A DNA stretch of 64,000 bases from Lacunisphaera limnophila (GTDB taxonomy: Bacteria > Verrucomicrobiota > Verrucomicrobiia > Opitutales > Opitutaceae). The stretch lies in NCBI RefSeq assembly GCF_001746835.1, contig NZ_CP016094.1:806001-870000 (forward strand), given 5' to 3'. The notes beneath the pieces are model-generated. The model searched no databases. It had not been told where the DNA came from and was given only the letters and a program-made list of their open reading frames with translations. Positions 4,858-47,991 of the stretch are shown in pieces. The translations under genes were made by a program, and so were the position numbers. Each line of letters starts with the position of its first letter. Position 1 is the stretch's first letter.

Positions 4858-7800
4858 ATGCGTCCACCTCTGCCAGGTACTGCCCGCCGGCTCCGACGCT
4901 TTGCCTTCACCGCCTGGTTGTCGGCCTGCACTTTGGCCATCGCCGGGGCGACAACGGAACCGCTCTGGCTGCGATACCCGGCCGTCTCCCCGGATGGGAC
5001 GACGATCGCCTTCAGCTACGCCGGCCGGCTCTGGCGCGTGGCCGCGACCGGCGGCGAGGCCAGCCCGCTCACGGACGCGGGCGACTACGCCACCCACCCG
5101 GTCTGGTCCCCCGACGGCACGCAGCTGGCCGTCGCGCTCAAGCGCCGGGGCAACACCGACGTCCACCTGCTCCCCGCCGCCGGGGGCGAAAGCCGGCGAC
5201 TGACCCACCACGCGGCGGCGGACCTGCCGGCCGCCTTCAGCCCCGACGGCGCCACGATCTACTTCGCCTCGCCCCGGCTCGGCACCCCGCACTCGGTCCT
5301 GGCGGGCACCGCCGCCCACACCGACCAGCTTTACGCCGTGCCCGCCACCGGCGGCCGCAACCGTCTCGTCCTGCCCACCCCCGCGCTCAATGTTTCGGTC
5401 GATGCAACCGGCGGACGCTTCCTCTACGAAAGCCGGCCGATCTACGAAAACGAGTGGCGCAAGGGCGCCGTGTCCGACGGCACCCACGACGTCTGGCTGT
5501 TTGACCGCGCGACCGCCACGCACCGTCGGCTGACCTCGTTCCGCGGCGAAGACCGTGAACCAGTCTGGGATCCCGCCAGCATTGGCTACTATTACCTCAG
5601 CGAGCGCAACCGCGCGACCAACCTCTGGCACGCGGGCCTCGAACCGGGGGCCACGCCCACGGAGGTCACTCACCACACCGGTGGCACGGTGCGCTTCCCG
5701 TCCGTCGCGCGCGACGGCTCGCTCGTTTACGGTCATGAAGGCGAGGTCTGGCGCCTCGCCGCCGGCGCGACCGAGCCCACGCGGGTTGCCATCACCCTGC
5801 CCGCCGGCGTCATCACCTCCCAACCCGCCCCGGTTGACGCCGGGAAATATCTCTCCGAGATCACTGCCTCCGCCGACGGGCGGCGCGTCGCCCTCGTCGC
5901 CCGCGGCGAAGTGTTTGTCCTCGCGACCGACACCGGGCGCCTGACCCGCATCACCCGCACCGCCGGACACGAGCAGCACGTCCGCTTCAGCCCGGATGGA
6001 ACCACGCTGTACTACGCCTCCGAGCGCGACGGCGACATGGACCTCTTCGCCGCCGACCTCGGCCAGAGCGACGAAATCAAACCGGTGGAGCGCAAGCTCG
6101 TCGATACGACGGGCGACCTCCTTTACCCCCGGCCCTCACCCGACGGCCGGTCCCTCGCCTACCTGGCTGACCGCTCCACCCTCCGCGTGCGCGACCTGGC
6201 CACGGGCGCCACCGTCGATGCCATGCCCGCCGGCGGCCTTTACTCCTATGTGGACGAGGATGTCACCTTCACCTGGTCGCCGGACAGCCGGTTTCTCGCC
6301 GCCAGTGGCGGCTCCATCGTCGCCAACCAGGACATCGTCCTGCTCGACGCCACCGGTCGCAGCGCTCCGCGCGACGTCACACGCAGCGGTTTTCCCGACA
6401 GTGATCCGCAGTTCAGCTCCGACGGCCAGTCCGTGTTCTGGGTGTCCGAGCGCGCGGGCCTGCGGCAGGCCGATGCCCATGGCGGCCAGGGGGACGTCTT
6501 CCGCGCGTACCTCACCCGCGAGGCCTTCGACGCCACCCGCCATGCCGCGCCCGCGGCGCCCCCGGTTGCCGGCTGGCAGCCGCAGCTCGCCGGCATCGAG
6601 CGCCGCACGCAGCGCATCACCCCGGCGTCCAGCCTGCTGGTGTTCCATGCCCCCGCCAGCGGCGACGAGGTGTTGTTCACCATCGAGACCGATATGGCCG
6701 GCCGGATCACCGGGCGCACGGTCGCCAGGGAAGGTGGTAAGCTCCGGGAGGTCTTCACCCGGCCGGCCCCGGCCGACGGCTACGCGGTGGACGCCGGCTC
6801 CCGCCACGTCTACCTGCTCGGCGACGGGCGCGTTGACCGCATCGAACTCGCCACCGGGGAGACCAAGGCCTTCGCGCTCGACCTTTCCCTGGAAGTGGAT
6901 TCCCGCGCCGAGCTCACCGCCTGGTTCGAACGCTTCTGGCGTTTGACGAAATTCAAGTTCTACGAGCCCACCCTCCACGGCCGCGACTGGGATGCCCTGC
7001 GCCGGCACTACGCGCGGTTCCTTCCGCACGTGGACGCCTGGGAGGATTTCGCCGAGATGATGTCCGAACTGGCCGGCGAGCTCAACGCCTCGCACATGGG
7101 CTGCTACTATCTGAAGGAGGACCCCGCCGCCGACAAGACCGCCTCGCTCGGCCTCTACTTTGATGACACCTACACCGGCGCGGGTGCTCGGGTGACCGCG
7201 ATCCTCCCCGGCGGCCCCGCCGACCTCGCCGCCAACCCGTGCCCGCCCGGCACGCTGCTGCTGGCGATCAACGACCAGCCCATCACGGCGGAGACCGATC
7301 TCGAGGCCCTGCTCAACGGCCTGGTCGACCAGCCCGTCCGCCTGCGCCTGCAGACGGCGGTCGGCGCCCCGGAGACCGAGGCCACGATCGTGGCCATCGC
7401 CCAGAACGCCGCGCAGGATCTGGCCTACGATCGCTGGATCGACGAGCGCCGCGCCATGGTCGATCGCCTCTCCGGTGGCCGCCTGGGCTACGTGCATATC
7501 AGCGCCATGGACCTGCCCAACTACCAGCAGGTCTACAGCGATGTCGTGGGGGACTTGGGCCGCAAGGAAGCCCTCATCGTCGACATCCGCTACAACAAGG
7601 GCGGGAATATCCATGACGAGCTCGTCGCGCTCTTCACCGGCCGGGACATTGCCTCCTTCACCACCCGGGCCGGTGAGAACATCGCCCGCATCCCGACCGC
7701 GCGCTGGACCAAACCCACCGCGCTGCTGCAGAACGCGGCCGCCTACTCCGACGGCTCCATCTTCCCCCACCTCTACCAGCGCCTCCAGCTCGGCCCCCTC

Positions 7801-23904: not shown

Positions 23905-23935
23905 ACGCCCGCCACCCGGCGGGCGTTTGTTTTTT
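23905..23935 (+). terminator. Rho-independent terminator after the M16 gene
   Basis: A perfect 9-bp stem (ACGCCCGCC at 23905-23913 against GGCGGGCGT at 23918-23926) with a 4-base loop is followed by TTGTTTTTTG. It lies 31 bases after the M16 stop and separates that gene from the M1 peptidase gene. Confidence 0.8.
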
Positions 23936-23939
23936 GTAG

Positions 23940-23961
23940 GGCGGGGTCGCCGAACCCCGCC
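23940..23961. repeat. Intergenic palindromic element, GGCGGGGTC family (single arm)
   Basis: A 22-base hairpin (GGCGGGGTCGCCGAACCCCGCC) preceded by TGTAG and followed by CTCGCC. Apart from one base it equals the arm found twice inside the fourth TIR gene at 38883-38904 and 38929-38950. It lies between the terminator and the M1 gene. It looks like one copy, or half a copy, of a dispersed palindromic repeat. Confidence 0.7.
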
Positions 23962-26683: not shown

Positions 26684-26751
26684 TGGAACCCGGCCTCCGG
26701 ACGGGTTGATCCGACATGCGTGGTCAAAACCGGTCCGGAGGCCCGGTTCCA
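26684..26751. repeat. Intergenic inverted repeat (19-base arms)
   Basis: TGGAACCCGGCCTCCGGAC at 26684-26702 is the reverse complement of 26733-26751 with one mismatch (18/19), with a 30-base spacer. It stands in the 268-base gap between the convergent M1 and S9A genes. Two further short palindromes, 26763-26776 (GCCTG/CAGGC) and 26799-26812 (GCTCGC/GCGAGC), follow before the TGTAGGGGCG element. Confidence 0.7.
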
Positions 26752-26831: not shown

Positions 26832-26903
26832 TGTAGGGGCGTGGCTCGTCCACGCCCGGGTTCGCCGCGCAAAAGGCGGACGCGGACAAGCCGCGCCCCT
26901 ACA
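26832..26903. repeat. Intergenic palindromic element, TGTAGGGGCG family
   Basis: A 72-base element beginning TGTAGGGGCG and ending CGCGCCCCTACA, with internal hairpins (GTGG..CCAC; GGCGGAC region). The same ends occur in the 54-base element inside the third TIR gene (36541-36594) and, degenerate, inside the first (30740-30801). It is therefore an intergenic copy of a family that also sits in coding sequence. There is no gene between the flanking stops. Confidence 0.75.
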
Positions 26904-29164: not shown

Positions 29165-29187
29165 TGTAGCCGGGGTCGCTGACCCGG
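29165..29187. repeat. Intergenic half-element, TGTAGCCGGGGTCG family
   Basis: The 23 bases TGTAGCCGGGG-TCGCTGACCCGG form a small hairpin. They match one half of the palindromic element carried in frame inside the second TIR gene (34093-34144). The copy lies in the 200-base gap between the S9A start and the last TIR gene. The rest of that gap shows nothing else recognisable. Confidence 0.6.
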
Positions 29188-29278
29188 TCCGACTCGACGC
29201 GCGTCGCCCAAAGCGGAAGGGACGTCCTTCAGTCCTGGATTTTCAGGTCTCAGGTCTCGGCGCTGAACGCTACGCGGG

Positions 29279-31267
29279 CTATTCGCCCGTCCTCGGCTCC
29301 GCCAGGATCGCCCGGATCTCCGGGTCGTCGCGCCACGGAGCCATGCGCGGGTCGAGCTGCATCCGCACCCGGATCGCCGTCCGCCCTTCGGGCCAAGTGA
29401 CGACACCCTCACGCAGAAACTCCAGCGCCGTGTCCCGCTCCCCGATCAGCAGCGCCCCCGGGATCAGCGTGAACCACCAGCCGGTGACCAGGCTCTGCGC
29501 ATAGGGCCGCCGCTGGGCCTCCACCAAGCGGCCAAAGGCCACCTTCGCCTCGGTTTTTCGACCCAGTCCCAGCAGGGTCCAGAATTCGGCGTAATTCAGC
29601 CAGATGCGGGCCGGTTCGGTCGTGCGCATCCGCTGGATTTCCAGCCAGGCCGCCTCGTATTGCTGGCGGGCCAGCTCGGCTTTGCCCTGGCGCACCAGCA
29701 GGTCGGCGTTCAGCAGGGCGGTTGGCCCGGCATACTCAAAATCCGTGAACCACTTCTGGGTGAAGGCGCGCAGCGCATCCAGGCCCGCCTCCACGTCGCC
29801 CCCGAACGCCGCATAAAGGAAGTAGCCGAACACCGCCCGCTCGGTTCCACGCACCCGTTCCGGGACCTGATCCAACCAACGCTTCATCCCCGGGAAGTCG
29901 TTGTGCAGGCCGAACTGGAGGCGCGCCTTCCACGCAATGGCGTTGGGCAGCGGGGTCAACGCCAGCGTGGCATCCAACTCCCGGTCGAATTCCTCGTAGC
30001 GGCCCTGGTCCTTGTAATGGCGGGCCAGGTCGTAGCGTGAGAGCGCGTCCCGCGGGAAGCGCCGCACGTTCTCCTGCGACTGCGCGAGGGCCTCCGCCTG
30101 CCGCCCGGGCTGGACGTTCAACAGGTCAGCCAGCATCCGGCCGTGGCGGGGATTGCCGGGATCTCGCTCCATGGCCTGGCGCAACAGGCGTTCGGCGCGG
30201 GTCACGTTCGTCGCCCGGGCAAACAGGTAGGTCGCGACGGCCAGCATCGCCTCGGGCTCGTTGGGATCGAGCTGCAGGGCGCGTTCCCCATAGAGCCGTG
30301 CCTGGGCCGAGCGCTCGTCACTTCGGTCGAAACCCCGCCGCATGAATTGTGACTGGACGCGCGCCATGACCGTCACGGCCTCCAGGTCGGCGGGGGACCG
30401 CTCGAGGATCGGTTTCACGAGCTGCTCGGCGAGGGCGAGATCATCGGGGATCGATTCCAAGCCCTCAATCAGGTCGATCGCCTTCTTCAAGTCCGGGTGC
30501 TTCGGCCAGTCCCGGGCGACCACCGGCGCGGCCGGCTCTTCACCCAATTTCCCGGCCAGCAGGTCACCGCCGCGCGCCGCGACCGGAGCGGACTTCAGCG
30601 GGGCGGCCGGCGGCGGGGGACCGGAATTAAGCGCGATGGGCGACGGCCGCAGCAGCCACCAGGTCGCGCCGCCCGCCAGCGCGAAGATCGCGACGCCCAG
30701 CCCGGCATAGACTTTCCAGCCCGGCGCCGGCGAGGAACCTGGCAGGGGCGCGCCGCGGGCGCGCCCGTCGGCGTTCCCGCCTTCGCGGGACGACGCTCCG
30801 ACATCGGCCTGATGTTTCAGCACCCCCGCCCGGTGCGACCAGAGCTTCACGAACTTGGCCTTGGCCTCGGGCGTCATCTCGCCGCCGCGGACACGCGTCC
30901 ATTGCACGGTGCGGAACCGGTCGGGCACGAGCGCGTCCGGCTCACGCGTGTCATCGATCACGATGGGCAGGATGAAGGCCACGCCACTCGCAATCCCGAG
31001 CGCCCGCTGGGCCGCCAGCTCCCACTCGATGCGAAAATACCCCTCCTCGCGCGCCTGCGTGTTGGCCGAGATGATCGGGAGGAAGAGCACGCACTCCTTG
31101 ATCTGCCGCCGGATCTTCGCATCCCACTCGTCGCCGGTCTCCAAACCGCCCTCGACATCGAACCACACCTCGACGCCACTCGCGCGCAGGGATTCGGCAA
31201 TACGGCGTGCGGCCTCCGCGTCCTGGGAGGCGTAGGATAAAAAGACGGCTTTACCGGGATCGCTCAT
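29279..31267 (-). CDS. TIR-TM-TPR protein A (no TolB-like domain)
   Basis: 662 residues. The TIR domain (about 6-145) starts KAVFLSYASQDAEAA and has the box VEVWFD. In GYFRIEWELAA, E81 sits four residues after Y77, the place of the catalytic Glu in NADase TIRs. A linker (156-177: VGASSREGG... GRARGAPLPG) is encoded by a palindromic element. One membrane helix (about 185-206) follows. The rest is about 430 residues of TPR helices (LYGERALQLDPNEPEAMLAV and similar), predicted outside the cytoplasm. TIR domains cleave NAD or make cyclic ADP-ribose-type signals. Last gene of a four-gene array, two bases after protein B; sensing by TPR is inference. Confidence 0.88.
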   Translation of the reverse strand: MSDPGKAVFLSYASQDAEAARRIAESLRASGVEVWFDVEGGLETGDEWDAKIRRQIKECVLFLPIISANTQAREEGYFRIEWELAAQRALGIASGVAFILPIVIDDTREPDALVPDRFRTVQWTRVRGGEMTPEAKAKFVKLWSHRAGVLKHQADVGASSREGGNADGRARGAPLPGSSPAPGWKVYAGLGVAIFALAGGATWWLLRPSPIALNSGPPPPAAPLKSAPVAARGGDLLAGKLGEEPAAPVVARDWPKHPDLKKAIDLIEGLESIPDDLALAEQLVKPILERSPADLEAVTVMARVQSQFMRRGFDRSDERSAQARLYGERALQLDPNEPEAMLAVATYLFARATNVTRAERLLRQAMERDPGNPRHGRMLADLLNVQPGRQAEALAQSQENVRRFPRDALSRYDLARHYKDQGRYEEFDRELDATLALTPLPNAIAWKARLQFGLHNDFPGMKRWLDQVPERVRGTERAVFGYFLYAAFGGDVEAGLDALRAFTQKWFTDFEYAGPTALLNADLLVRQGKAELARQQYEAAWLEIQRMRTTEPARIWLNYAEFWTLLGLGRKTEAKVAFGRLVEAQRRPYAQSLVTGWWFTLIPGALLIGERDTALEFLREGVVTWPEGRTAIRVRMQLDPRMAPWRDDPEIRAILAEPRTGE
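30740..30801. repeat. In-frame palindromic element inside TIR protein A (degenerate TGTAGGGGCG family)
   Basis: Read on the minus strand it begins TGTCGGAGCGTCG and ends GGCGCGCCCCTGCCA, with the palindrome GGGCGCGCC..GGCGCGCCC inside. Translation gives VGAS...GRARGAPLPG. This matches, in the same reading frame, the VGAS..GRAQGAPLQ encoded by the sharper element in protein C. Ends have drifted compared with the intergenic copy at 26832. Confidence 0.6.
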
Positions 31268-31269
31268 TT

Positions 31270-34200
31270 CTACTGGCCGTCAGCTAGGCCGACTTTGCGC
31301 ATCAACTCCTGCCAGCGTGGATCGGAGAAAAGGGGCGTCAATTCCGTGTTTTCGCGCAGCCACGCGATGCTAGGGTCGCGGCTGATCCGGGCTTTCTCCA
31401 GCGCGGCGAACGCGCGGTCCTTGTCCCCGAGTCCGGCATACAGCCACGCGGTGCAGGTCTGCAGGTCGGCGCGGTCGGGTTCGGTGCGGGCCAGCTGCTC
31501 CAAGCGGGCGAGCATCTCGCGGACCATCGCCAGGTCGCCGCGCGCCAGGCCCAGCAACCCCCGGGTGCCGCTCTGCTGGACCACATCCAGATCGAGCGCG
31601 AGCGACGCCTCGGCCTCGGCATAGCGCCCCTGGTTGATCAGGGGCCAGGCCAGCACGCTATGGTAACTCGTGCCCCCGGGGGCCAATTGCAGCGCCCGGC
31701 GCGCCGCCCGCTCCGATTCGACCCAGTTCTTGCTTTCGAAAAACATGATGCTCAGGTCAATCTGGGTGCTGGGGTTGAGCGGGTCGAGTTGGACCGCCAG
31801 CCGGGCCAGCCGGAAGGCCTCTTCGGTCTGGCCGATGTTGAAGAGCAGCACCGCCGTGCCGGCGAGGATCTCGGGATTGTTGGGCTGCAGGGCCAGCGCC
31901 CGCCGGAACGACCGCTCGGCGCCCCGCCAGTCCCATTCGGCGGTGCGCAAGATCCAGCCCTGCGCCAGCAGCACGTCGGGTGATTCCGGTTCCAGCGCCA
32001 GCGCCTGATCAATGGCCGCGCGGGCCGCCGCCCAAGAGGCCAGCGTCGGCGCCCCACCCCAGCGGCCGAGCCGGGTGTGGATGCTCGCCAGTTGCACCCA
32101 GGCCGCCGTGTACTTCGGCTCCAGCGCCACCGCCCGCTCGAAATGACCGACCGCTTCGCGCAGCTCCACCACGCTCGCCTTGGCCGCTGCGGACCGGCCG
32201 AGGAGGAAGGCCTGATAGGCGTCGGGCCGCACCGCCTGCCGCGGGACCGACTCGCCCATGCTCATCTTGAGCTCGAGGTTCTTCGCGATCAGCCCCGCGA
32301 TTTCATCCTGGACGGCGAAGATGTCCTTCAGGTCGCGGGTGAAGGTGTCGCTCCAGACGCGGAAGCCATCCGCCGCCTTGATCAGCTGCGCGGTGATGCG
32401 AACCTTGTCGCCCTGCTTGCGCACACTGCCCTCCAGCACGTAGGCCACGCCGAGTTGGCGCGCAATTTCCGGTATCGGCACCTCCTTGCCCTTGAAATAG
32501 AATGCCGAGGTCCGCGCCGCGACCTTCAGCCCGGGCACCTTGGCCAGCACGTTGAGCAGCTCCTCACTGATGCCGTCGGAGAAATACTCGTTGGCCTTGT
32601 CGTCGGAGAGGTTGGCGAACGCCAGCACGGCGACGGATTTGGCGTCCGCAGCGGAGGACGCGGTCGTCGGTTCCTTGGCGGGCGCGGAGCGGGTTTGTTG
32701 CTCCTTGAGAACATGCAGCTCCGCCTCGTCCTCCTTGAGGATACGCTGCAAGCGCGGATCCCCCCGGATCACCGCATAGGCGGGATGGTAGCGGATGACG
32801 GGCAGGGCCCGGACCCGGCCCATGGGTTTGCGCCGGGACCATTCGCGCTCGATGGCGGCCAGCGCGGCCTCCGGTTCATTGAGGGCCACGAGGACTTGGG
32901 TCTCCGCCTCCAAGCCGACCGGATTCTGCTCCCCGCCCAGCTCGACCCGGAGCTGCCACGCTTCCCGCGCGGCTTCGCGCTGGCCCGTCAAGGCCAGCAA
33001 GAGGGCGCGTTGATTCAACAGGGACGGGTTTCGGGCATCGGTCTTCAGCCGCTCATCAACCAGGGTGAGCGCAGCGCGCCACTCGGCCTGCGCGGCCGCC
33101 GGCCGCTTGGCGATGGCATGCGCCCAACCCGTGAGGTATCCCTTGGGTTCGCGGGCGGCGTATTCCTCGAAATAATCCTGCGGCACCTGGGCGAGGGCTT
33201 GCAGGGCTTTCTCCGGCTCCGCACGCCAGAGCCAGTAATACGCGATCGCGGAGCCGAAGGCCGGCTCCTGCCGGAAGCGGGCCGGAATTTTTTCGATGAA
33301 CGGAGCGGCCGCCGCCAGGTCGTGCCAGCTCCGCATGAGCAGGTTGAGTTTCTCGTAATAGGCCCCGCGCAGCACCCCGGGATCCGCGAGCATTTCGTCC
33401 AGCATGGCCTCCGCCTCGGCATAGCGGCCCAGCGTGCGCAACCGCAGCTCCTCAAACCACAACGCGAGCGGAAACAGGCCTGTGCGCGGCAGGGCGCGGA
33501 ATTTCCGGATGAGGTCCTGCACGGCGGTTTCATTTCCCATCCCCCCCTCGGCCCGCACGAGGCTGAAGAGCACCTGCTGGTCGGCGGGGGCCCGGCGATG
33601 CAGCTCCTGCAGTATCCGCAGCAATTCCCCGTCATTGCCGGTGCCTTCCAAACAACGGGCGACCGCGAGCGCCGCCCGCACCGACTGCGGGTCAACCTGG
33701 CTGGCACGCGCCGCCTGCGAGCGCGCCTTCTCGCGCCGGCCCGCGCTGGTATCGTAGGTGTTGGAAAAGAGATTGTGGGACGCGAACGCCGCCACCGCCC
33801 AGACCTCCGCATCGCCCGCGTCCAGCGCCAAAGCCCGCTGGCAGAGTTCATCGGCGAGCCACGAGGTCTCCCGCGTGAAGTTCGGATCCTCGAGCAGCTG
33901 CATCGCCTGGTTCGCCAGCTTGCGGGCCTCGGAAACGGGCTGGGTCATCGTGGGCGCCGGCCCATTCGATGAGCTCGGGGCCGGCTCCTTGCGTGCCTCT
34001 TTCATGACGAGCACCATCGCCATCGTCACGCCGAAGATCGGCAGCACCCACCACCATTTGGACGCCCCGCGGCGGGGTGGCACCGGTCTTGATGTAGCCG
34101 GGCTCGTTGAGCCCGGAAGGCCGGGATCAACGACCCCGGCTGCAGTTCCATCCAATAACTTCCTCACCCGCACACAAAAGGCCGGCGTGGCCTCGCCCGC

Positions 34201-34578
34201 CGGCAACTTGGTCCACTGCACGGCGCGGAATTCCGCCGGCACCCTGGCCTCGGCGTCGCGCGTGCCGTCGATCAGCACGGGCAACAGGAAGGTCATCTCG
34301 TCGGCCATGGTGTGCGTGCGCTGCGCGGCGAGTTTCCACTCCAGCCGGAAATACCCCTCCAGCCGCGCCTGCGTGTTCGCCGAGATGAGCGGCACGAACA
34401 GCGCGCACGACGAAATCTGCCCGCGGATCTTCCCATCCCACTGGTCCCCGCCCACCAGCTCGTTCTGGTCGAACCACACCTCGACGCCGGCGGCGCGGAG
34501 CGCGTCACAAATGCGCTTCGCCGCCTCGGCATCCTGCGAAGCGTAACTGAGGAAAACGGCTTTGCCGGGATCACTCAT
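31270..34578 (-). CDS. TIR-TM-TPR-TolB-TPR protein B (long, apparently composite)
   Basis: 1102 residues from the ATG at 34578; the extra frame to 34986 is shadow of the next gene. TIR domain about 6-140 (VEVWFDQNE; candidate catalytic E80 in GYFRLEW), an element-encoded linker (about 145-162), a membrane helix (about 175-193), then a first TPR region ending RGDPRLQRILKEDE near residue 620. A TolB-like domain (SVAVLAFANLSDDKANEYF, about 647-790) and a second TPR array that ends FSDPRWQELMRKVG follow. The first half matches protein A and the second half matches C and D, as if two genes had fused. The TolB-like domain is the COG5616-type domain seen with TPRs in bacterial signalling proteins; its ligand is unknown. 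Confidence 0.88.
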   Translation of the reverse strand: MSDPGKAVFLSYASQDAEAAKRICDALRAAGVEVWFDQNELVGGDQWDGKIRGQISSCALFVPLISANTQARLEGYFRLEWKLAAQRTHTMADEMTFLLPVLIDGTRDAEARVPAEFRAVQWTKLPAGEATPAFCVRVRKLLDGTAAGVVDPGLPGSTSPATSRPVPPRRGASKWWWVLPIFGVTMAMVLVMKEARKEPAPSSSNGPAPTMTQPVSEARKLANQAMQLLEDPNFTRETSWLADELCQRALALDAGDAEVWAVAAFASHNLFSNTYDTSAGRREKARSQAARASQVDPQSVRAALAVARCLEGTGNDGELLRILQELHRRAPADQQVLFSLVRAEGGMGNETAVQDLIRKFRALPRTGLFPLALWFEELRLRTLGRYAEAEAMLDEMLADPGVLRGAYYEKLNLLMRSWHDLAAAAPFIEKIPARFRQEPAFGSAIAYYWLWRAEPEKALQALAQVPQDYFEEYAAREPKGYLTGWAHAIAKRPAAAQAEWRAALTLVDERLKTDARNPSLLNQRALLLALTGQREAAREAWQLRVELGGEQNPVGLEAETQVLVALNEPEAALAAIEREWSRRKPMGRVRALPVIRYHPAYAVIRGDPRLQRILKEDEAELHVLKEQQTRSAPAKEPTTASSAADAKSVAVLAFANLSDDKANEYFSDGISEELLNVLAKVPGLKVAARTSAFYFKGKEVPIPEIARQLGVAYVLEGSVRKQGDKVRITAQLIKAADGFRVWSDTFTRDLKDIFAVQDEIAGLIAKNLELKMSMGESVPRQAVRPDAYQAFLLGRSAAAKASVVELREAVGHFERAVALEPKYTAAWVQLASIHTRLGRWGGAPTLASWAAARAAIDQALALEPESPDVLLAQGWILRTAEWDWRGAERSFRRALALQPNNPEILAGTAVLLFNIGQTEEAFRLARLAVQLDPLNPSTQIDLSIMFFESKNWVESERAARRALQLAPGGTSYHSVLAWPLINQGRYAEAEASLALDLDVVQQSGTRGLLGLARGDLAMVREMLARLEQLARTEPDRADLQTCTAWLYAGLGDKDRAFAALEKARISRDPSIAWLRENTELTPLFSDPRWQELMRKVGLADGQ
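34093..34144. repeat. In-frame palindromic element inside TIR protein B (TGTAGCCGGG family)
   Basis: 52 bases, bounded by TGTAGCC...GGCTGCA, with two hairpin arms (CCGGGCTCGTTGAGCCCGG and CCGGGATCAACGACCCCGG). It encodes TAAGVVDPGLPGSTSPAT in the linker before the membrane helix. The single arm at 29165-29187 is an intergenic relative. Confidence 0.7.
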
Positions 34579-34712
34579 GCCTGGATGAAAATCCACCCGC
34601 GTGCCCAGGCGCGATGGCCCGACCCCGGGGTCACGACCCTTCCCTGCGTTGCTTCGTGCCTCTGTGGTGAAATTCCGGACATTGAACGGGGGGCGTTGGG
34701 CCTTGCTCCGCC

Positions 34713-37061
34713 TCAGAGCGTTTTCGCGGACCGCAGGATTTCCTCGAAGCGCGGGTCGTCCTTCAGCTGGGCGTAGCAGGGATCGGCGCGCAGTTCCCGC
34801 GGGGTATCGCTGGCCCCGCCCGCCACGGCGCGACGCAGGCAAACCAGCGCCTCCTCGGGATGTCCCGTGAGGGCGAGGACCCGCGCGCTCTCTGTCCAGA
34901 CCAGGGCCGCCATCAGGCTGTCGTAGCGGGCCAGTTGCTCGGCCTGGCCCATGATCTCCGCCGGCTGCCCGTCGCCGAGATAGCACTTCGCCAGGGCAAT
35001 ATAGTGGTTAACCAGTCGTTGCTGGCGGGGGGACCAGGGGCCGGCCTCGAAGTGGGCCAGGGCTTCGCGGGCGGCGGCCTGCGAACCCGCCGTATCTCCC
35101 CGTAGCCAGGTGACCATCGCGCGCGGGAAAGAGGCCGGCATCGCCAGGACCCCGCTCGCGGAACTCACGAAGGTCACCATCCGGGGATCCGAAAGGGCTT
35201 TTTCCGCTGCGGCCAGATCCCCGGCGCGGAAGGCCTGCACGTAGGCCGCCTGCAAGGCGTGCTTGTCGGCCGGCAGCGGCGGCGTGTCCGCCAGCTTGCG
35301 CAGATAGGCGGCGCGGTTGCCGTCGAGCTCATACTGGCCCCGGATGAAATAGGACTGCAGCCAGCCATCCCCCGGAAAGAGCGCGAGGAACCGTTCGGCG
35401 AGCGGCGGGATGGCCGAGTAACGCCGCATCGTGAACAGGGTCTCGATCTGGGTCGTGACATAGCTCCGGTCCCGCGGATTCAGGACCACGGACCGCTCGA
35501 TGTGTTCAAGCGCCTCCGGCCAGCGGCCCAGGCGCCGCAGGGAGATGCCGATCCGGTATTGGAGCTCGGCATCGTTGGGCAGGCCGGCTTCCGCCGCCTG
35601 GAAGGCCGCGAGCGCCTTGCCCCAGTCGTTCTCGCACGTGTAGGCGAAGGCGGCCTGGGCAATCCGCGTCTCCGGGGCATCGGGCGCAATCTTCTGCGCT
35701 GCTTCCATGGCGGCTTGGGCGAGGGCCCGGCGCGCGGGCGAAGGATCCACCCCGCCAAACCAATACATGGTGCCATGCAGGAGGGCCAGCTGGACGTAGG
35801 CGTCGACAAAGGCCGGGTCCCGGTCGATGGCGCGCTGGTAGAGGGCGATGATCGGCGCGTAGGCTTCCGGCGGGGCGGTCGCACTGAGTTCCTGTTTCAA
35901 CACGCGGCCCTGCATGTACAAGTCGTAAGCCACGGAATCCTGCGTCGGCCGGCGTTCGATTAAGGCCCGCTCGCCCGCCGTGAGGTTGGCCTTGAGTGCG
36001 CCGGCAATTTCCCGCGCCAGCTCGCCCTGCAGGGCAAACACGTCGGTGAGGTCGCGGTCGTAGGTCTCCGCCCAGAGGTGCTCGTCGCTGCGGGCGTCGA
36101 TCAGCTGGGCGGTGACGCGCACCTTCTGGCCCGCGCGGCGCACGCTGCCCTCGAGCACAAACGCGACGCCGAGGTCCGCGGCGATCTTCCGCAGGTTGCG
36201 CGAGGCGGCTTCGCGGTAGGCCAGCACCGAGGTGCGCGAGATGACCTTGAGGTCGCGGATCTTGGCGAGGCCCGTGATCACATCCTCGTGGATGCCGTCG
36301 GCGAAGAAGGCGTTCTCCGCCTCCGGGCTCATGTTGGCAAAGGGCAGGACGGCGATCGACTTGGCGCCCGCGGCGGGCGCCACCGGCGCCGCCACGGCAA
36401 CCGCGGGGGCGGGGGCCGGCGCCTGTGGGCCGGGGACGTTCTCCGGCGCCGGCGCGGGCTTCCGCGCGACGCCAAATGCGATCGCGACGCCAACCACCAC
36501 GGCGGTCAGCGCGCCCCAGGTCCAGCGGGGGAGACCTTTTTGTAGGGGCGCGCCTTGTGCGCGCCCGCGGGCGTCGTCGAGCGACGCCCCTACACCGGTG
36601 GGACGAGGGCGTCCGCCCTCCAGCGGCTTCCCCTCCAGCAACCGCTTCACCTGCTCGACAAAGGACGGCGTGGGCAGCGCGCCGGGCAGGCGCGACCACT
36701 GCACCCGCATGAACTCCGGCGGGACGACGGCGGCCGACTCCTTCGTGTCATCGATCACCACGGGGGCGATGAAGGGCACCCCCTCGGCGAGCAGGTGCGT
36801 CTGGTCCACCGCCAGTTTCCATTCGAGCCGGAAATAACCCTTGGTCCGCGTCTGGGTGTGAGTGGAGATGACCGGCACGAAGAGCGTGCAGGCATCGATC
36901 TGTTTCCGGATCTTCGCGTCCCACTGGTCGCCGCCGCGCAGCTCATTCTCGTCGAACCAGACCTCCAGGCCCGCGCTGCGCAGCGCCTCGGCGATGCGCC
37001 GCGCCGCCGCCGCGTCATCGCGGGCATAGCTGAGAAAAACGGCTTTGTTCGGCTCGGCCAT
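34713..37061 (-). CDS. TIR-TM-TolB-TPR protein C
   Basis: 782 residues. TIR domain about 6-140 with LSYARDDAAAARRIAEAL, LEVWFDENE and candidate catalytic E80 in GYFRLEW; an element-encoded linker (156-174); a membrane helix (181-198, TWGALTAVVVGVAIAFGV); a Pro/Ala-rich stretch; a TolB-like domain (about 234-375, SIAVLPFANMSPEAENAFF ... VFVLEGSVRRAGQ-type core); and TPR repeats to the end (LKDDPRFEEIL). The TIR would be cytoplasmic and the TolB/TPR part periplasmic, a receptor-like topology by inference. Its ATG directly abuts the stop of protein D. 134 bases separate it from B. Confidence 0.9.
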   Translation of the reverse strand: MAEPNKAVFLSYARDDAAAARRIAEALRSAGLEVWFDENELRGGDQWDAKIRKQIDACTLFVPVISTHTQTRTKGYFRLEWKLAVDQTHLLAEGVPFIAPVVIDDTKESAAVVPPEFMRVQWSRLPGALPTPSFVEQVKRLLEGKPLEGGRPRPTGVGASLDDARGRAQGAPLQKGLPRWTWGALTAVVVGVAIAFGVARKPAPAPENVPGPQAPAPAPAVAVAAPVAPAAGAKSIAVLPFANMSPEAENAFFADGIHEDVITGLAKIRDLKVISRTSVLAYREAASRNLRKIAADLGVAFVLEGSVRRAGQKVRVTAQLIDARSDEHLWAETYDRDLTDVFALQGELAREIAGALKANLTAGERALIERRPTQDSVAYDLYMQGRVLKQELSATAPPEAYAPIIALYQRAIDRDPAFVDAYVQLALLHGTMYWFGGVDPSPARRALAQAAMEAAQKIAPDAPETRIAQAAFAYTCENDWGKALAAFQAAEAGLPNDAELQYRIGISLRRLGRWPEALEHIERSVVLNPRDRSYVTTQIETLFTMRRYSAIPPLAERFLALFPGDGWLQSYFIRGQYELDGNRAAYLRKLADTPPLPADKHALQAAYVQAFRAGDLAAAEKALSDPRMVTFVSSASGVLAMPASFPRAMVTWLRGDTAGSQAAAREALAHFEAGPWSPRQQRLVNHYIALAKCYLGDGQPAEIMGQAEQLARYDSLMAALVWTESARVLALTGHPEEALVCLRRAVAGGASDTPRELRADPCYAQLKDDPRFEEILRSAKTL
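36541..36594. repeat. In-frame palindromic element inside TIR protein C (TGTAGGGGCG family)
   Basis: Exactly 54 bases (18 codons), running TGTAGGGGCGCGCC ... GACGCCCCTACA, with inverted ends and an inner GCGCGCCCGCGGGCG palindrome. It encodes VGASLDDARGRAQGAPLQ on the minus strand. The 72-base intergenic element at 26832-26903 has the same ends. Confidence 0.78.
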
Positions 37062-39404
37062 TTAGAACAGCGGGGCGTAGTTCTTGGGGTCGGCAAGAAA
37101 GGCCTGGAAACGCGGGTCCTGCCGCAGCGCGGGACTGACGTACGTCTGCTCCAGCTTGAGACGCTCGAGGCTCATGGTGCCGGGGAGCCGCGCCAACCGG
37201 GTTAACTCGGCCAGGGCCACTTCCTGGTCGCCGGTCAGGCCGTAGAGGAAAGCGCGCTGCAGGGCCCAACGGGGACCATCGGAGGCATCCCGGGATTCCG
37301 GCATCAGCGCGACGCACTGGTCGGCCAGGCGCCGGGTCTCCTCCGGGCGCCCCAAAATCAATTCCGCCGCCGCCAGCGTTATCAGCAACCGGCCGTTCCG
37401 GGGCTCGGCTTCCAGCAGCCGGCGCAGCTCCGCGGGGTGTTCGGCCAACCGGGCCAGCGCCCCGGCCCGATCCCCGGCCTGAAAATAGTACAAGGCCGCG
37501 TAGACCGCCTGTTCGACGTGGGGACTGCCGTTGGCATCATAAAACGGTTGGAGGCGGTCCAGGCGGAAGATTTCCGCCGTGTTGCTGGTTAGCTTGGCCC
37601 AATTCGAGCGCAGCTCGATGCCCTCGGGCGAATTGAGCTGGTCCGGGGTCAACGCGGCGAAAAAGGCCTCCGTCTCGCGGCGCGAGCCTGTCGCCCAGAA
37701 ATGAGACTGCGCCAGCATGTAGCCTTCCGTGAGGTTATCCGGCAACAGGGCCACGATCCGCCGCTGGGTCGCGATGACGTCGGGCCAGCGCCGGCCGGAC
37801 TGGTAGGTGGCCAGGAGATTACGCAGGTAGCCGATGTTGGCCGGGTCGAGTTCGCAGGCCCGGCGCGTGTTGGCCAGGGACTCGGCCCAGCGGCCCTGCC
37901 GGCGCTGGATCAGGCCGAGGGAGTTGAACACGGTCGGGGCGTTGGGCTGCAGCCGCGCCAGCTTCAGGTATTGCTCCGTCGCGCGGTCATAGTCGCGGTA
38001 GCCGTAATAGTGATAGGTCCCGAGGCTGCTGATGACCTCGGGGTCCTCGGGGGCGAGCTGCACGGCGCGCTCGATCGCGGCCTTGGCCCGCGCCAGGTAC
38101 TCCTCGCTGCCCACGAGGTTGCCGAAATAGGCGAAGGCGCAGGCGCTCGCGAGCTCGCCCCAGCCCTGCGCAAAGGCCGGATCCAGGTCCACGGCACTCT
38201 GCAGCAGGGCGATGCGCTTTTTGCGGGCGGCCGCCGTGGCGCCCTCGCGGTTGCTGATGTCACGGGAGCGCAGGAAGAAGTCGTAGGCGGCGGGATTCTC
38301 GGTCGGCTTGCGGGCGAGGAGCGCCTTCTCCTCCGGCGAGAGCGCGGCCTTGAGCGCACCGGCGATTTGCGACGAGAGCTCGGCTTGGATCGCGAACACG
38401 TCGGTGATGTCGCGGTCGAAGGACTGGGCCCACACGTGCTCGTCGGTCGCGGCGTGGATGAGCTGGCCGGTGACGCGCACCTTGTTGCCCGAGCGTCGCA
38501 CGCTGCCCTCGAGAATGTAGGTGACGCCGAGCTCCTGCGCGATCTGCCGCATGGGTTTCGTCGTGGCGCGGTAAGCCATCACCGAGGTGCGGGACACGAC
38601 CCGCAGTTCGCGGATCAGGGCGAGATTGGTGAGGATATCCTCGTGCATGCCGTCGGTGAAGAAGGCGCTGTCCTTCTCCTCGCTCATGTTGGTGAACGGG
38701 AGCACGGCCACGGACTTGTCGGCGACCGACGGCGGACGAACCGGTTCCGGCGTCTGGGGTTTGGGCTCCGGGAGGGCGGCGGGCTCGGGTTTGCGCCCGA
38801 CGCCGAGCGCCACCGCGACGCCGACCACGACCGCGGTCAGCGCGCCCCAGGTCCAGCCGGGGATGGCTTTCTTCTTCTGGGGGGCGGGGTCTCCGAACCC
38901 CGCCGGATTGCCCGTCTGCGTCGGGGCAGGCGGGGTTCGGAGACCCCGCCCTCCATCCTTCTCTCCGCTCAAGAGCCGTTTCACCTGCTCGACAAACTGG
39001 GGCGTGGGTGCACCCGCGGGCAGCCGGGTCCATTGCGCCCGGCCAAAGGATTCGGGCACCGCCGCCCCGGCTTCCGGCGTGTCGTCAATCACCACCGGCA
39101 CGATGAAGGCCTTGCCCGAGGCCATGAGGTGGGAGCGATCATCGGCGAGTTTCCATTCCAACCGGAAGTAGGCCTCGTCGCGCGCCTGCGTGGTCGCGGA
39201 AATCACCGGGATGAACAAGCCGCAGGCCTTGATCTGCCCGCGGATCTTCTGGTCCCACTGGTCGCCCCCGCGCAGCTCGCTCATGTCGAACCACACCTCC
39301 ACCCCGAAACCCCGCAATGCCTCGGCAATGCGTTTGGCGGGTTCGGCATCTTCCCGAGCATAGCTCAAAAAGACAGCCCGAGCCGAAGGTGTGTGGTCCG
39401 GCAT
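37062..39404 (-). CDS. TIR-TM-TolB-TPR protein D (first gene of the array)
   Basis: 780 residues with the same plan as protein C: TIR about 9-145 (VFLSYAREDAEPAKRIAEAL, VEVWFDMSE, candidate catalytic E83 in AYFRLEW), an element-encoded linker (151-174), membrane helix 184-203 (TWGALTAVVVGVAVALGVG, nearly identical to C), TolB-like domain about 229-370 (KSVAVLPFTNMSEEKDSAFF), and TPR repeats ending RQDPRFQAFLADP. It is the promoter-proximal gene, divergent from the SLOG protein gene across 86 bases that contain no other gene. Promoter elements there are not clear to me. The TIR NADase activity is inferred from fold and the Glu. Confidence 0.9.
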   Translation of the reverse strand: MPDHTPSARAVFLSYAREDAEPAKRIAEALRGFGVEVWFDMSELRGGDQWDQKIRGQIKACGLFIPVISATTQARDEAYFRLEWKLADDRSHLMASGKAFIVPVVIDDTPEAGAAVPESFGRAQWTRLPAGAPTPQFVEQVKRLLSGEKDGGRGLRTPPAPTQTGNPAGFGDPAPQKKKAIPGWTWGALTAVVVGVAVALGVGRKPEPAALPEPKPQTPEPVRPPSVADKSVAVLPFTNMSEEKDSAFFTDGMHEDILTNLALIRELRVVSRTSVMAYRATTKPMRQIAQELGVTYILEGSVRRSGNKVRVTGQLIHAATDEHVWAQSFDRDITDVFAIQAELSSQIAGALKAALSPEEKALLARKPTENPAAYDFFLRSRDISNREGATAAARKKRIALLQSAVDLDPAFAQGWGELASACAFAYFGNLVGSEEYLARAKAAIERAVQLAPEDPEVISSLGTYHYYGYRDYDRATEQYLKLARLQPNAPTVFNSLGLIQRRQGRWAESLANTRRACELDPANIGYLRNLLATYQSGRRWPDVIATQRRIVALLPDNLTEGYMLAQSHFWATGSRRETEAFFAALTPDQLNSPEGIELRSNWAKLTSNTAEIFRLDRLQPFYDANGSPHVEQAVYAALYYFQAGDRAGALARLAEHPAELRRLLEAEPRNGRLLITLAAAELILGRPEETRRLADQCVALMPESRDASDGPRWALQRAFLYGLTGDQEVALAELTRLARLPGTMSLERLKLEQTYVSPALRQDPRFQAFLADPKNYAPLF
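38883..38950. repeat. In-frame palindromic element inside TIR protein D (perfect 22-base inverted repeat)
   Basis: Arms 38883-38904 and 38929-38950 are exact reverse complements (22/22), each itself a hairpin with a GGCGGGG/CCCCGCC stem; the spacer is 24 bases. It encodes most of GGRGLRTPPAPTQTGNPAGFGDPAPQ in the linker. The intergenic arm at 23940-23961 differs by one base. Confidence 0.8.
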
Positions 39405-46728: not shown

Positions 46729-47991
46729 ATGAAACGCCTTCTTCCCCTCCTGCTCCTGCTCGCCCTGGTGGCCCCCCGCACCTCGGCCAAGACCGTCATC
46801 TTCCCCGTCGAAGGCATTGCCGACCTCTGGCAGCTGGCCGAGGTCGAGTTCGCCCAAAAATACGCCGGCATCAACGTCACGGGCCTCGGCCCGAGCGATG
46901 AGGGCTGGTATGTGCGCTACCGCCACGAAAACCTCACCTACCTCTTTGGGCCGCTGACCGACGATGACGCCGCCCTCCGCGCCCGCTGGGAACTGGAGGC
47001 CGTGCGTGACGCCGCCATCCGCACCCGGCCCACCCTCGACACCAGCCAGATCGATGTCGTGAAATTCACCTTCAGTGGCGAGATGGGTCGGCGCGGCGAC
47101 GGCTCCGGCGGCCCGGGCGGCCCCCGCCCCACCCACGACATCGACGGCAAACCGCTCGGGGGCGACGGGGACATCGATGGCGACGGCATTCCCGACCACA
47201 AGGATCCGGACATGGACGGCGACGGCATCCCCAACAAGGACGACGCCGATGTGGATGGCGATGGCGTGTCCAATACCCAGGACGGCGACATGGATGGCGA
47301 CGGCATCCCCAACGAATCCGACGGCGACCTGGACGGCGATGGCATCGCGAACACCGCGGACAGCGACCTCGATGGCGACGGCCAGAGCAACGCGATCGAC
47401 GGCGACGTGGACGGCGACGGCACACCCAACGAGCAGGACGGCGACATGGACGGCGACGGCACCGAGAACGGCCGGGATTCCCAACCCGGCCAGTACACCG
47501 CCGAGGGCCAGTCGGCCGCCGACGGTCAGGGGCAGCAGGGGCAGCAAGGTCGCCAAGGCCAGCGGCAGAGCCAGAGCCAAGGCCAGCAGCAAGGCCAACA
47601 GGGCCAGCAAGGGCAGCAAGGCCAGCAAGGGCAACAGGGCCAGCAGAGCCAGCAATCACGGCAGCAGCAAAGCCGCATGCAACGGCCCGGCTCCCAGTCC
47701 TCGCAGAGCAGCAGCCAGCAGCAATCGCAGCAGGAGCAGCAGGGCCTCCAGGTCATGAATCCCTCGTCCGGCCAGCCCGGGCAACCGTCCCAGTCGCAAA
47801 GCCAATCCCAACAGAATTCGCAGGGCCAGCAGGGGCAGCCTTCCTCGCAACAATCTCAGCAGCAAAGCTCCTCCTCGTCGTCCAGTTCTAGTTCCAGCGG
47901 CGGCCAGGGCCAGCCCTCCCAGCAGCAGCAACAGCAGCAGCAGAGCAGCCTGAACATCGTCCAGATGCTGCGGTGGATCCTGGGGATCTGA
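46729..47991 (+). CDS. Exported calcium-repeat protein with Gln/Ser-rich tail
   Basis: 420 residues. Signal peptide (residues 1-20), then an unannotated domain (about 20-125), a Gly-rich hinge, eight DxDGDG units (148-251) and a tail of about 150 residues made largely of Gln, Gly and Ser. The last 15 residues are SLNIVQMLRWILGI, a short hydrophobic helix. DxDGDG-x-x-N/D repeats are thrombospondin type 3-like calcium-binding motifs found in secreted or surface proteins. The tail should be disordered or self-associating. It is the last gene of the trio and faces the vWA operon across a palindromic gap. Function unknown; a calcium-dependent envelope scaffold is a guess. Confidence 0.85.
   Translation: MKRLLPLLLLLALVAPRTSAKTVIFPVEGIADLWQLAEVEFAQKYAGINVTGLGPSDEGWYVRYRHENLTYLFGPLTDDDAALRARWELEAVRDAAIRTRPTLDTSQIDVVKFTFSGEMGRRGDGSGGPGGPRPTHDIDGKPLGGDGDIDGDGIPDHKDPDMDGDGIPNKDDADVDGDGVSNTQDGDMDGDGIPNESDGDLDGDGIANTADSDLDGDGQSNAIDGDVDGDGTPNEQDGDMDGDGTENGRDSQPGQYTAEGQSAADGQGQQGQQGRQGQRQSQSQGQQQGQQGQQGQQGQQGQQGQQSQQSRQQQSRMQRPGSQSSQSSSQQQSQQEQQGLQVMNPSSGQPGQPSQSQSQSQQNSQGQQGQPSSQQSQQQSSSSSSSSSSSGGQGQPSQQQQQQQQSSLNIVQMLRWILGI
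47170..47481 (+). repeat. Eight tandem 39-base units encoding DxDGDG calcium motifs
   Basis: The motif D-x-D-G-D-G-x-x-N/D-x-x-D recurs eight times with an exact 13-residue (39-base) period: DIDGDGIPD, DMDGDGIPN, DVDGDGVSN, DMDGDGIPN, DLDGDGIAN, DLDGDGQSN, DVDGDGTPN, DMDGDGTEN. The even spacing and variation between units fit expansion by recombination followed by drift. Confidence 0.9.

Follow-up and report, generated by a model that had tools for sequence, protein, structure and literature searches.

In a cluster of four TIR genes of Lacunisphaera limnophila, the linker between the TIR domain and the membrane helix carries in each gene a GTAG-type REP doublet (REPIN), of which one is intact and three have drifted. 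We propose, with a probability of about 0.8, that this permissive, length-tolerant linker repeatedly captures the REPINs of its own host. REPs are short mobile palindromic repeats that normally lie between genes. To our knowledge, it has been debatable ever since their discovery whether intragenic copies are neutral or of use to the host. The existence of intragenic REPs is known, but we are not aware of a description of a single domain junction, within a group of paralogues, that REPs from different families have filled repeatedly. The linker offers a natural replicate experiment, with one site, about ten REP families and dozens of largely independent captures, and with built-in controls in the form of REP-free sister genes and REP-poor genomes. 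Such captures also represent a route from a non-coding mobile element to protein sequence.

The TIR gene cluster and its linker elements

The window, i.e. the whole stretch of 64,000 nucleotides that was analyzed, covers positions 806001-870000 of a genome that consists of one contig of 4.2 Mb. Its four TIR genes, g1 to g4, are all located on the minus strand and share the order TIR domain, linker, membrane helix (TM) and C-terminal part. The protein encoded by g1 (29279..31267) has a TIR domain (Pfam TIR_2, 8-131) and a C-terminal TPR part (TPR_19). In g2 (31270..34578), for which the start was set at 34578 and the Pfam TIR domain begins at residue 8 from there, the membrane helix is followed by TPR, TolB-like and again TPR parts (Pfam). 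TolB/FlgO-like and TPR parts are found in g3 (34713..37061; Pfam and AlphaFold2 model), whose membrane helix, residues 180-198 in the model, is encoded at 36468..36524. In g4 (37062..39404; Pfam) they are TolB-like and TPR, the TolB-like region being recognized by alignment with g3. All four proteins belong to PF13676 (TIR_2), with 68.8-72.3 bits versus a cut-off of 28. The preliminary description had called the genes paralogues from different families; they are indeed paralogous in the TIR domain, and it is in the parts after this domain that they differ. A fifth TIR gene of the genome (L072, 612209-612556) has a linker without palindrome, so that what is described here is valid for the four-gene cluster and does not extend to all TIR genes of this organism.

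An in-frame palindromic segment between TIR domain and membrane helix, as reported initially, is present in each of g1, g2, g3 and g4. The extents first given for g2 and g3 stand, while the element of g1 is corrected to 64 nt and that of g4, of which the inner 68 nt only had been recognized, to 78 nt. All elements are read on the minus strand. The GTAGGGGCG-type REPIN of g3 (36541..36594, 54 nt) is read VGASLDDARGRAQGAPL and has both TGTAG/CTACA ends intact; a single palindrome, TGGAGGGCGGACGCCCTCGTCC (36596..36623), read EGGRPRPT, adjoins it. The GTAGCCGG-type REPIN of g2 (34093..34144, 52 nt), read AAGVVDPGLPGSTSPAT, has one end mutated to GCAG. In g4, the GTAGGGCGGGG-type REPIN (38878..38955, 78 nt), read GGRGLRTPP...AGFGDPAP, has a 24-base inverted-repeat score and ends mutated to TGGAG/CCCCA. 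A degenerate hybrid palindromic element is found in g1 (30740..30803, 64 nt) and is read VGASSREGGNADGRARGAPLP. The GTAG-type ends (TGTAG...CTACA) are intact on both sides in g3, on one side in g2, and mutated on both sides in g4 and g1; intact ends are also present in many genomic copies and in linkers of relatives. Two arms in inverted orientation with a short spacer are common to all four elements. Compared with dinucleotide shuffles, the linker DNA gave MFE z-scores of -5.1 (g4), -2.9 (g2), -2.4 (g3) and -1.6 (g1). The g1 element is unconvincing on its own, its folding being within chance. Its 3' half resembles the GTAGGGGCG (g3) type, as judged by eye.

REP copies and RAYT genes in the host genome

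Following a proposal of the preliminary description, the genome was searched for each element, and other copies were found for the types of g4, g2 and g3. The g4 REP (GGCGGGGTCTCCGAACCCCGCC) has 161-193 matches (161 at no more than 3 mismatches) versus 0 for the reversed-pattern control, and it often occurs in inverted pairs, about 49 bases from start to start. The g2-type REP has 17 matches (reversed control 0), and the low-copy g3 type forms four clear inverted pairs (REPINs). The 5' half of the g1 element has no other copy in the genome and thus does not behave as a high-copy repeat. As a family probe, the bare 10-mer TGTAGGGGCG (g3 type) had to be discarded because it showed no enrichment (22 matches versus 20 for the reversed control) and is unusable alone. 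The single palindrome TGGAGGGCGGACGCCCTCGTCC of g3 has just 2 weak further matches in its own genome (3 mismatches), and its type recurs in TIR linkers of relatives. Element identity and copy number are directly supported by these data for the g2, g3 and g4 types.

Within the window, a GTAGGGGCG-type REPIN as in g3 (26832..26903), which is one of the four inverted pairs of this type, a GTAGGGCGGGG-type REP as in g4 (23935..23961) and a GTAGCCGGGGTC-type REP as in g2 (29165..29190) lie between genes. Another intergenic palindrome, TGGAACCCGGCCTCCGG... (26684-26751), is similar to an element in a TIR linker of the relative G010 (L145, gene at 5350). In a sample made of genome stretches around REP matches, 98 of 116 REP elements were intergenic. 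The genome encodes two RAYT-like Y1 transposases. One of them, a Y1_Tnp RAYT-like gene (L070; G000:C1:2125223-2125519), has g4-type REPs on both sides. The second (L071:1405-1911) is flanked by GGAGGCGGGGTGCCCTCACCCCGC, a REP type other than that around the first.

Confinement of the palindromes to the TIR-membrane linker

With a TIR-TM query, matches were obtained in 27 of 115 related genomes, with up to 19 genes per genome. These relatives, retrieved by sequence, are MAGs of Opitutaceae, among them Lacunisphaera sp., and their genes were predicted with our own codon-usage gene caller. About 60 stretches yielded 150 distinct TIR genes, of which the 125 with a definable linker constitute the analyzed set. 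Strong inverted repeats were counted separately in the TIR-TM linker (link1, 12.5 kb over the 125 genes), in the post-TM linker (link2, 15 kb) and in the remaining coding sequence. Twenty were found in link1 and 3 in link2, versus 0 in the 250 kb encoding TIR domain, membrane helix and C-terminus; codon shuffling left 1, compared to 23 in the real sequences. Another 25 genes, obtained in a separate scan, contained 6 in link1 and 0 elsewhere (51 kb), which brings the comparison of link1 with link2 to 26 versus 3 for both sets (P 1e-6). Likewise, an MFE z-score below -4 was reached by 22 of the 125 link1 linkers, versus 3 of the post-TM segments of equal length and 0 of those within the TIR domain. 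Confinement to the linker is a direct observation. Perfect REPINs are numerous among the linkers of the relatives, e.g. in L135, L162, L164 and L125.

Some REP-free linkers (L083, L129, L139, L082) contain simple tandem-repeat peptides such as AEDRGQKTED, EQGAGSKEQG and RPEVRGQGPEV. In the window, a 39-nt tandem repeat with a DGDG-type calcium-binding-like motif (47133-47461) is followed by a 9-nt QQG-type repeat (47524-47658).

Many REP families and largely independent captures

A recognizable REP is present in 49 of the 125 linkers. These REPs fall into about ten families, the classes being approximate since they were set by peptide and DNA motif. That several families share a single site is directly observed, and so is the dependence of the family on the genome. 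On the TIR tree, which was built by a quick method from 140 aa and includes genes from some MAG assemblies predicted by our own caller, the REP family changes 46 times compared to a mean of 48 after shuffling, i.e. nearly at random with respect to gene lineage. Among REP-bearing genes, the same family is shared by 51 of 101 pairs within a genome versus 128 of 1075 pairs between genomes. The G062-type REP (GTGGCACGGGTCTCC) reaches 234 matches in G062, compared to no more than 6 in each of the other genomes searched. The REP types of the linkers are those that are abundant in the respective host genome. Since the REP family tracks the host genome and not the TIR tree, the captures must be largely independent, and a single REP inherited from one ancient gene fusion is ruled out.

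Close relatives illustrate this at the sequence level. The g1 gene and a gene of G011, with TIR domains 91% identical, have different REPs whose left edge is at the same place, and g2 and two G011 genes have different REPs before the same membrane-helix start. Alignment with REP-free relatives, which had been suggested as a check, revealed that the linker differs there, with no palindrome-free linker in common, and that a clean empty site is lacking among the closest pairs with and without REP (g4 and G016, 81%; G009 and G018, 80%), in which the linkers are unrelated. The proposed comparison of insertion edges did not recover exact edges with an empty site, the non-REP flanks being different even between close relatives.

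A permissive linker as proposed capture site

The idea of a tolerated landing site, put forward in the preliminary description, is well supported. Many REP families are found at one place and none in the TIR, membrane or C-terminal coding sequence, and linkers without REP are similar in length and charge. The median length is 32 aa with REP and 29.5 aa without (P 0.03, a small difference), and the mean net charge is +2.4 in both groups. This near-equal length and equal charge are direct observations. Proline, alanine, arginine, glycine and serine are abundant in REP-bearing and REP-free linkers. In the AlphaFold2 model of g3, the TIR and TolB-like parts are confident and residues 180-198 form a helix, whereas residues 154-178 have a pLDDT below 50. 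The REP-encoded residues (about 157-174) fall inside this segment, and the REP peptide is accordingly predicted to be a disordered stretch. The linker spacer seems to take almost any insert of the right length.

Supply of REPs may also matter. When three REP types, partly picked for occurring in linkers, are counted, genomes richer in REPs have a larger share of folded linkers (rho 0.68, P 0.001); when RAYT genes are counted in their place, the trend becomes weaker and no more than suggestive (rho 0.39, P 0.09). In the genome G045, where the g4-type REP has 1 match and the remaining two types have 0, there are ten such TIR genes, none with a strongly folded linker. The reading frame relative to GTAG is nearly uniform across the linker REPs. 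This uniformity carries little weight because stop codons close many of the frames and the copies are non-independent.

The following scenario probably accounts for these data. REPINs, presumably moved around the genome by the host RAYT (TnpA-REP) transposases, would insert genome-wide and mostly be lost from genes. The spacer between TIR domain and membrane would be disordered, with constraint on length and charge and not on sequence, so that REPINs landing there in an open frame would be kept and translated as a peptide of 18-26 residues rich in P, A, G and R. Captured REPINs would then decay or be trimmed while fresh ones enter. We infer the RAYT-driven movement, the neutrality of the inserts and their turnover by insertion, decay and replacement. 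Two observations fit less well. If REPs were plainly inserted into a ready-made linker of 29 aa, a length of 47-55 aa would be expected, yet linkers with REP exceed the others only slightly. As they are not 20 aa longer, either trimming follows insertion or the REP replaces sequence; no intermediate between insertion and trimmed linker was seen among the linkers. Moreover, the excess of palindromes in link1 over the equally loose link2 is not predicted by plain tolerance.

Alternative explanations

The linker points to a boundary where a large TIR protein family appears to change partners. The linker REPINs could correspond to a recombination seam of a modular system, at which genes that differ in their C-terminal sensor modules trade TIR output modules and where the REPs either supply homology or mark the joints. 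We consider this unlikely, though it is the alternative that survives best. DNA similarity between related TIR genes ends at link1 in 344 of 482 pairs, but this break of homology at the junction is seen in REP-free genes as well. TIR domains that are 88-96% identical are found on C-termini with 29-45% identity, for which faster C-terminal evolution is also a possible cause. The nearest neighbour by TIR domain is the nearest by C-terminus in 9 of 101 genes, compared to 23 of 101 for agreement between TIR halves and 48 of 101 between C-terminal halves, in nearest-neighbour tests that are noisy on 140 aa. Agreement is lower in REP-bearing genes (4 of 43) than in REP-free ones (14 of 58), although the difference is small. 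A point in favour is that some linker REPINs have arms from two different REP families (L145, L090). On the other side, the membrane-helix start that follows the REP is common to g2 and its G011 relatives, so that seam and REP do not always coincide. The sequence comparisons suggest, as a lead, that modules may be exchanged at the linker or close to it, whether or not a REP is present. It is a little more doubtful still that Opitutaceae REPINs act as working joints in a modular repertoire of TIR proteins for immunity or signalling, where they would both supply the linker and help to re-pair TIR output with divergent sensor modules.

The preliminary description had also raised the possibility of a function of the elements in the linker, which the data neither show nor require. 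The REP hairpin in the mRNA, or the peptide, might for instance cause ribosome pausing before the membrane helix or tune TIR signalling, and the strong hairpins at a single position, far more frequent in link1 than in link2, and the one reading frame relative to GTAG in nearly all cases would agree with this. This is nevertheless very improbable: 76 of the 125 linkers have no recognizable REP at about the same length and the same charge, the REP-poor G045 retains its genes of this type, REPs from unrelated families, and simple repeats too, serve just as well, and stop codons in the other frames explain much of the frame use. In particular, there was no support for an mRNA hairpin that would pause translation to assist membrane insertion. 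Finally, a chance origin of the palindromes from G+C-rich, proline/alanine-rich linker codons, compatible with a G+C content of 68% and with the g1 element taken alone, can practically be dismissed given the single inverted repeat left by codon shuffling versus 23 and the repeated genome copies elsewhere (reversed controls 0), and was already refuted for g2, g3 and g4.

Relation to known repeat systems

In-frame GTAG REPs have been published and are most numerous in Opitutus terrae, a relative, and the main text of that report suggests that intragenic REPs may be neutral when located in the flexible linker of a modular protein (Di Nocera et al. 2013, PMC3733652). As here, the published elements are described as GTAG-tagged palindromes, single or dimeric, that are read in frame as 20-30 residues. 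In contrast to the one junction of TIR paralogues reported here, the main text of PMC3733652 deals with scattered target genes and stresses DNA repair. In the passages compared, it makes no mention of TIR-domain proteins or paralogues, while the supplementary gene list, which lies outside this comparison, might include TIR genes; nor does the main text describe one site refilled by different REP families. The biochemistry of TnpA-REP explains the requirement for the GTAG tag and the hairpin (PMC8266576). With REPIN/RAYT systems, the elements of L. limnophila share inverted REP doublets, high copy number, a mostly intergenic location and a RAYT gene flanked by its own REP; they differ in that part of the REP population is in frame in coding sequence, at one domain junction. 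Rickettsia RPE, initially cited as precedent, are likewise palindromic repeats translated in frame within functional proteins, and to this extent the parallel holds. However, RPE-type repeats are presented in the main text of PMC3733652 as CGTC-tagged and without known transposase, whereas the elements here are of GTAG type and RAYT genes are present. The nearest precedent thus includes, besides RPE, the in-frame GTAG REPs described there, which are most numerous in O. terrae.

In-frame REPs in other genes

In-frame REPs elsewhere in the genome are tolerated but rare, whereas the TIR cluster has one per gene in 4 of 4 genes. After exclusion of chance 10-mer matches, one each was found in a RecD2-like helicase, an Nnr-like two-domain enzyme, where the REP is at the domain junction, PurL, a SNF2-type helicase, a sulfite/nitrite reductase and a nitrate-reductase-like protein (L054, L055, L063, L168, L211, L212), all these names, like the J-domain assignment below, being assigned from reading the sequences. 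In addition, a J-domain-like membrane protein (L036:1236-2423) contains an intact 81-nt g4-type REPIN in frame directly before its membrane helix, a juxtamembrane placement like that in the TIR linkers but in an unrelated gene.
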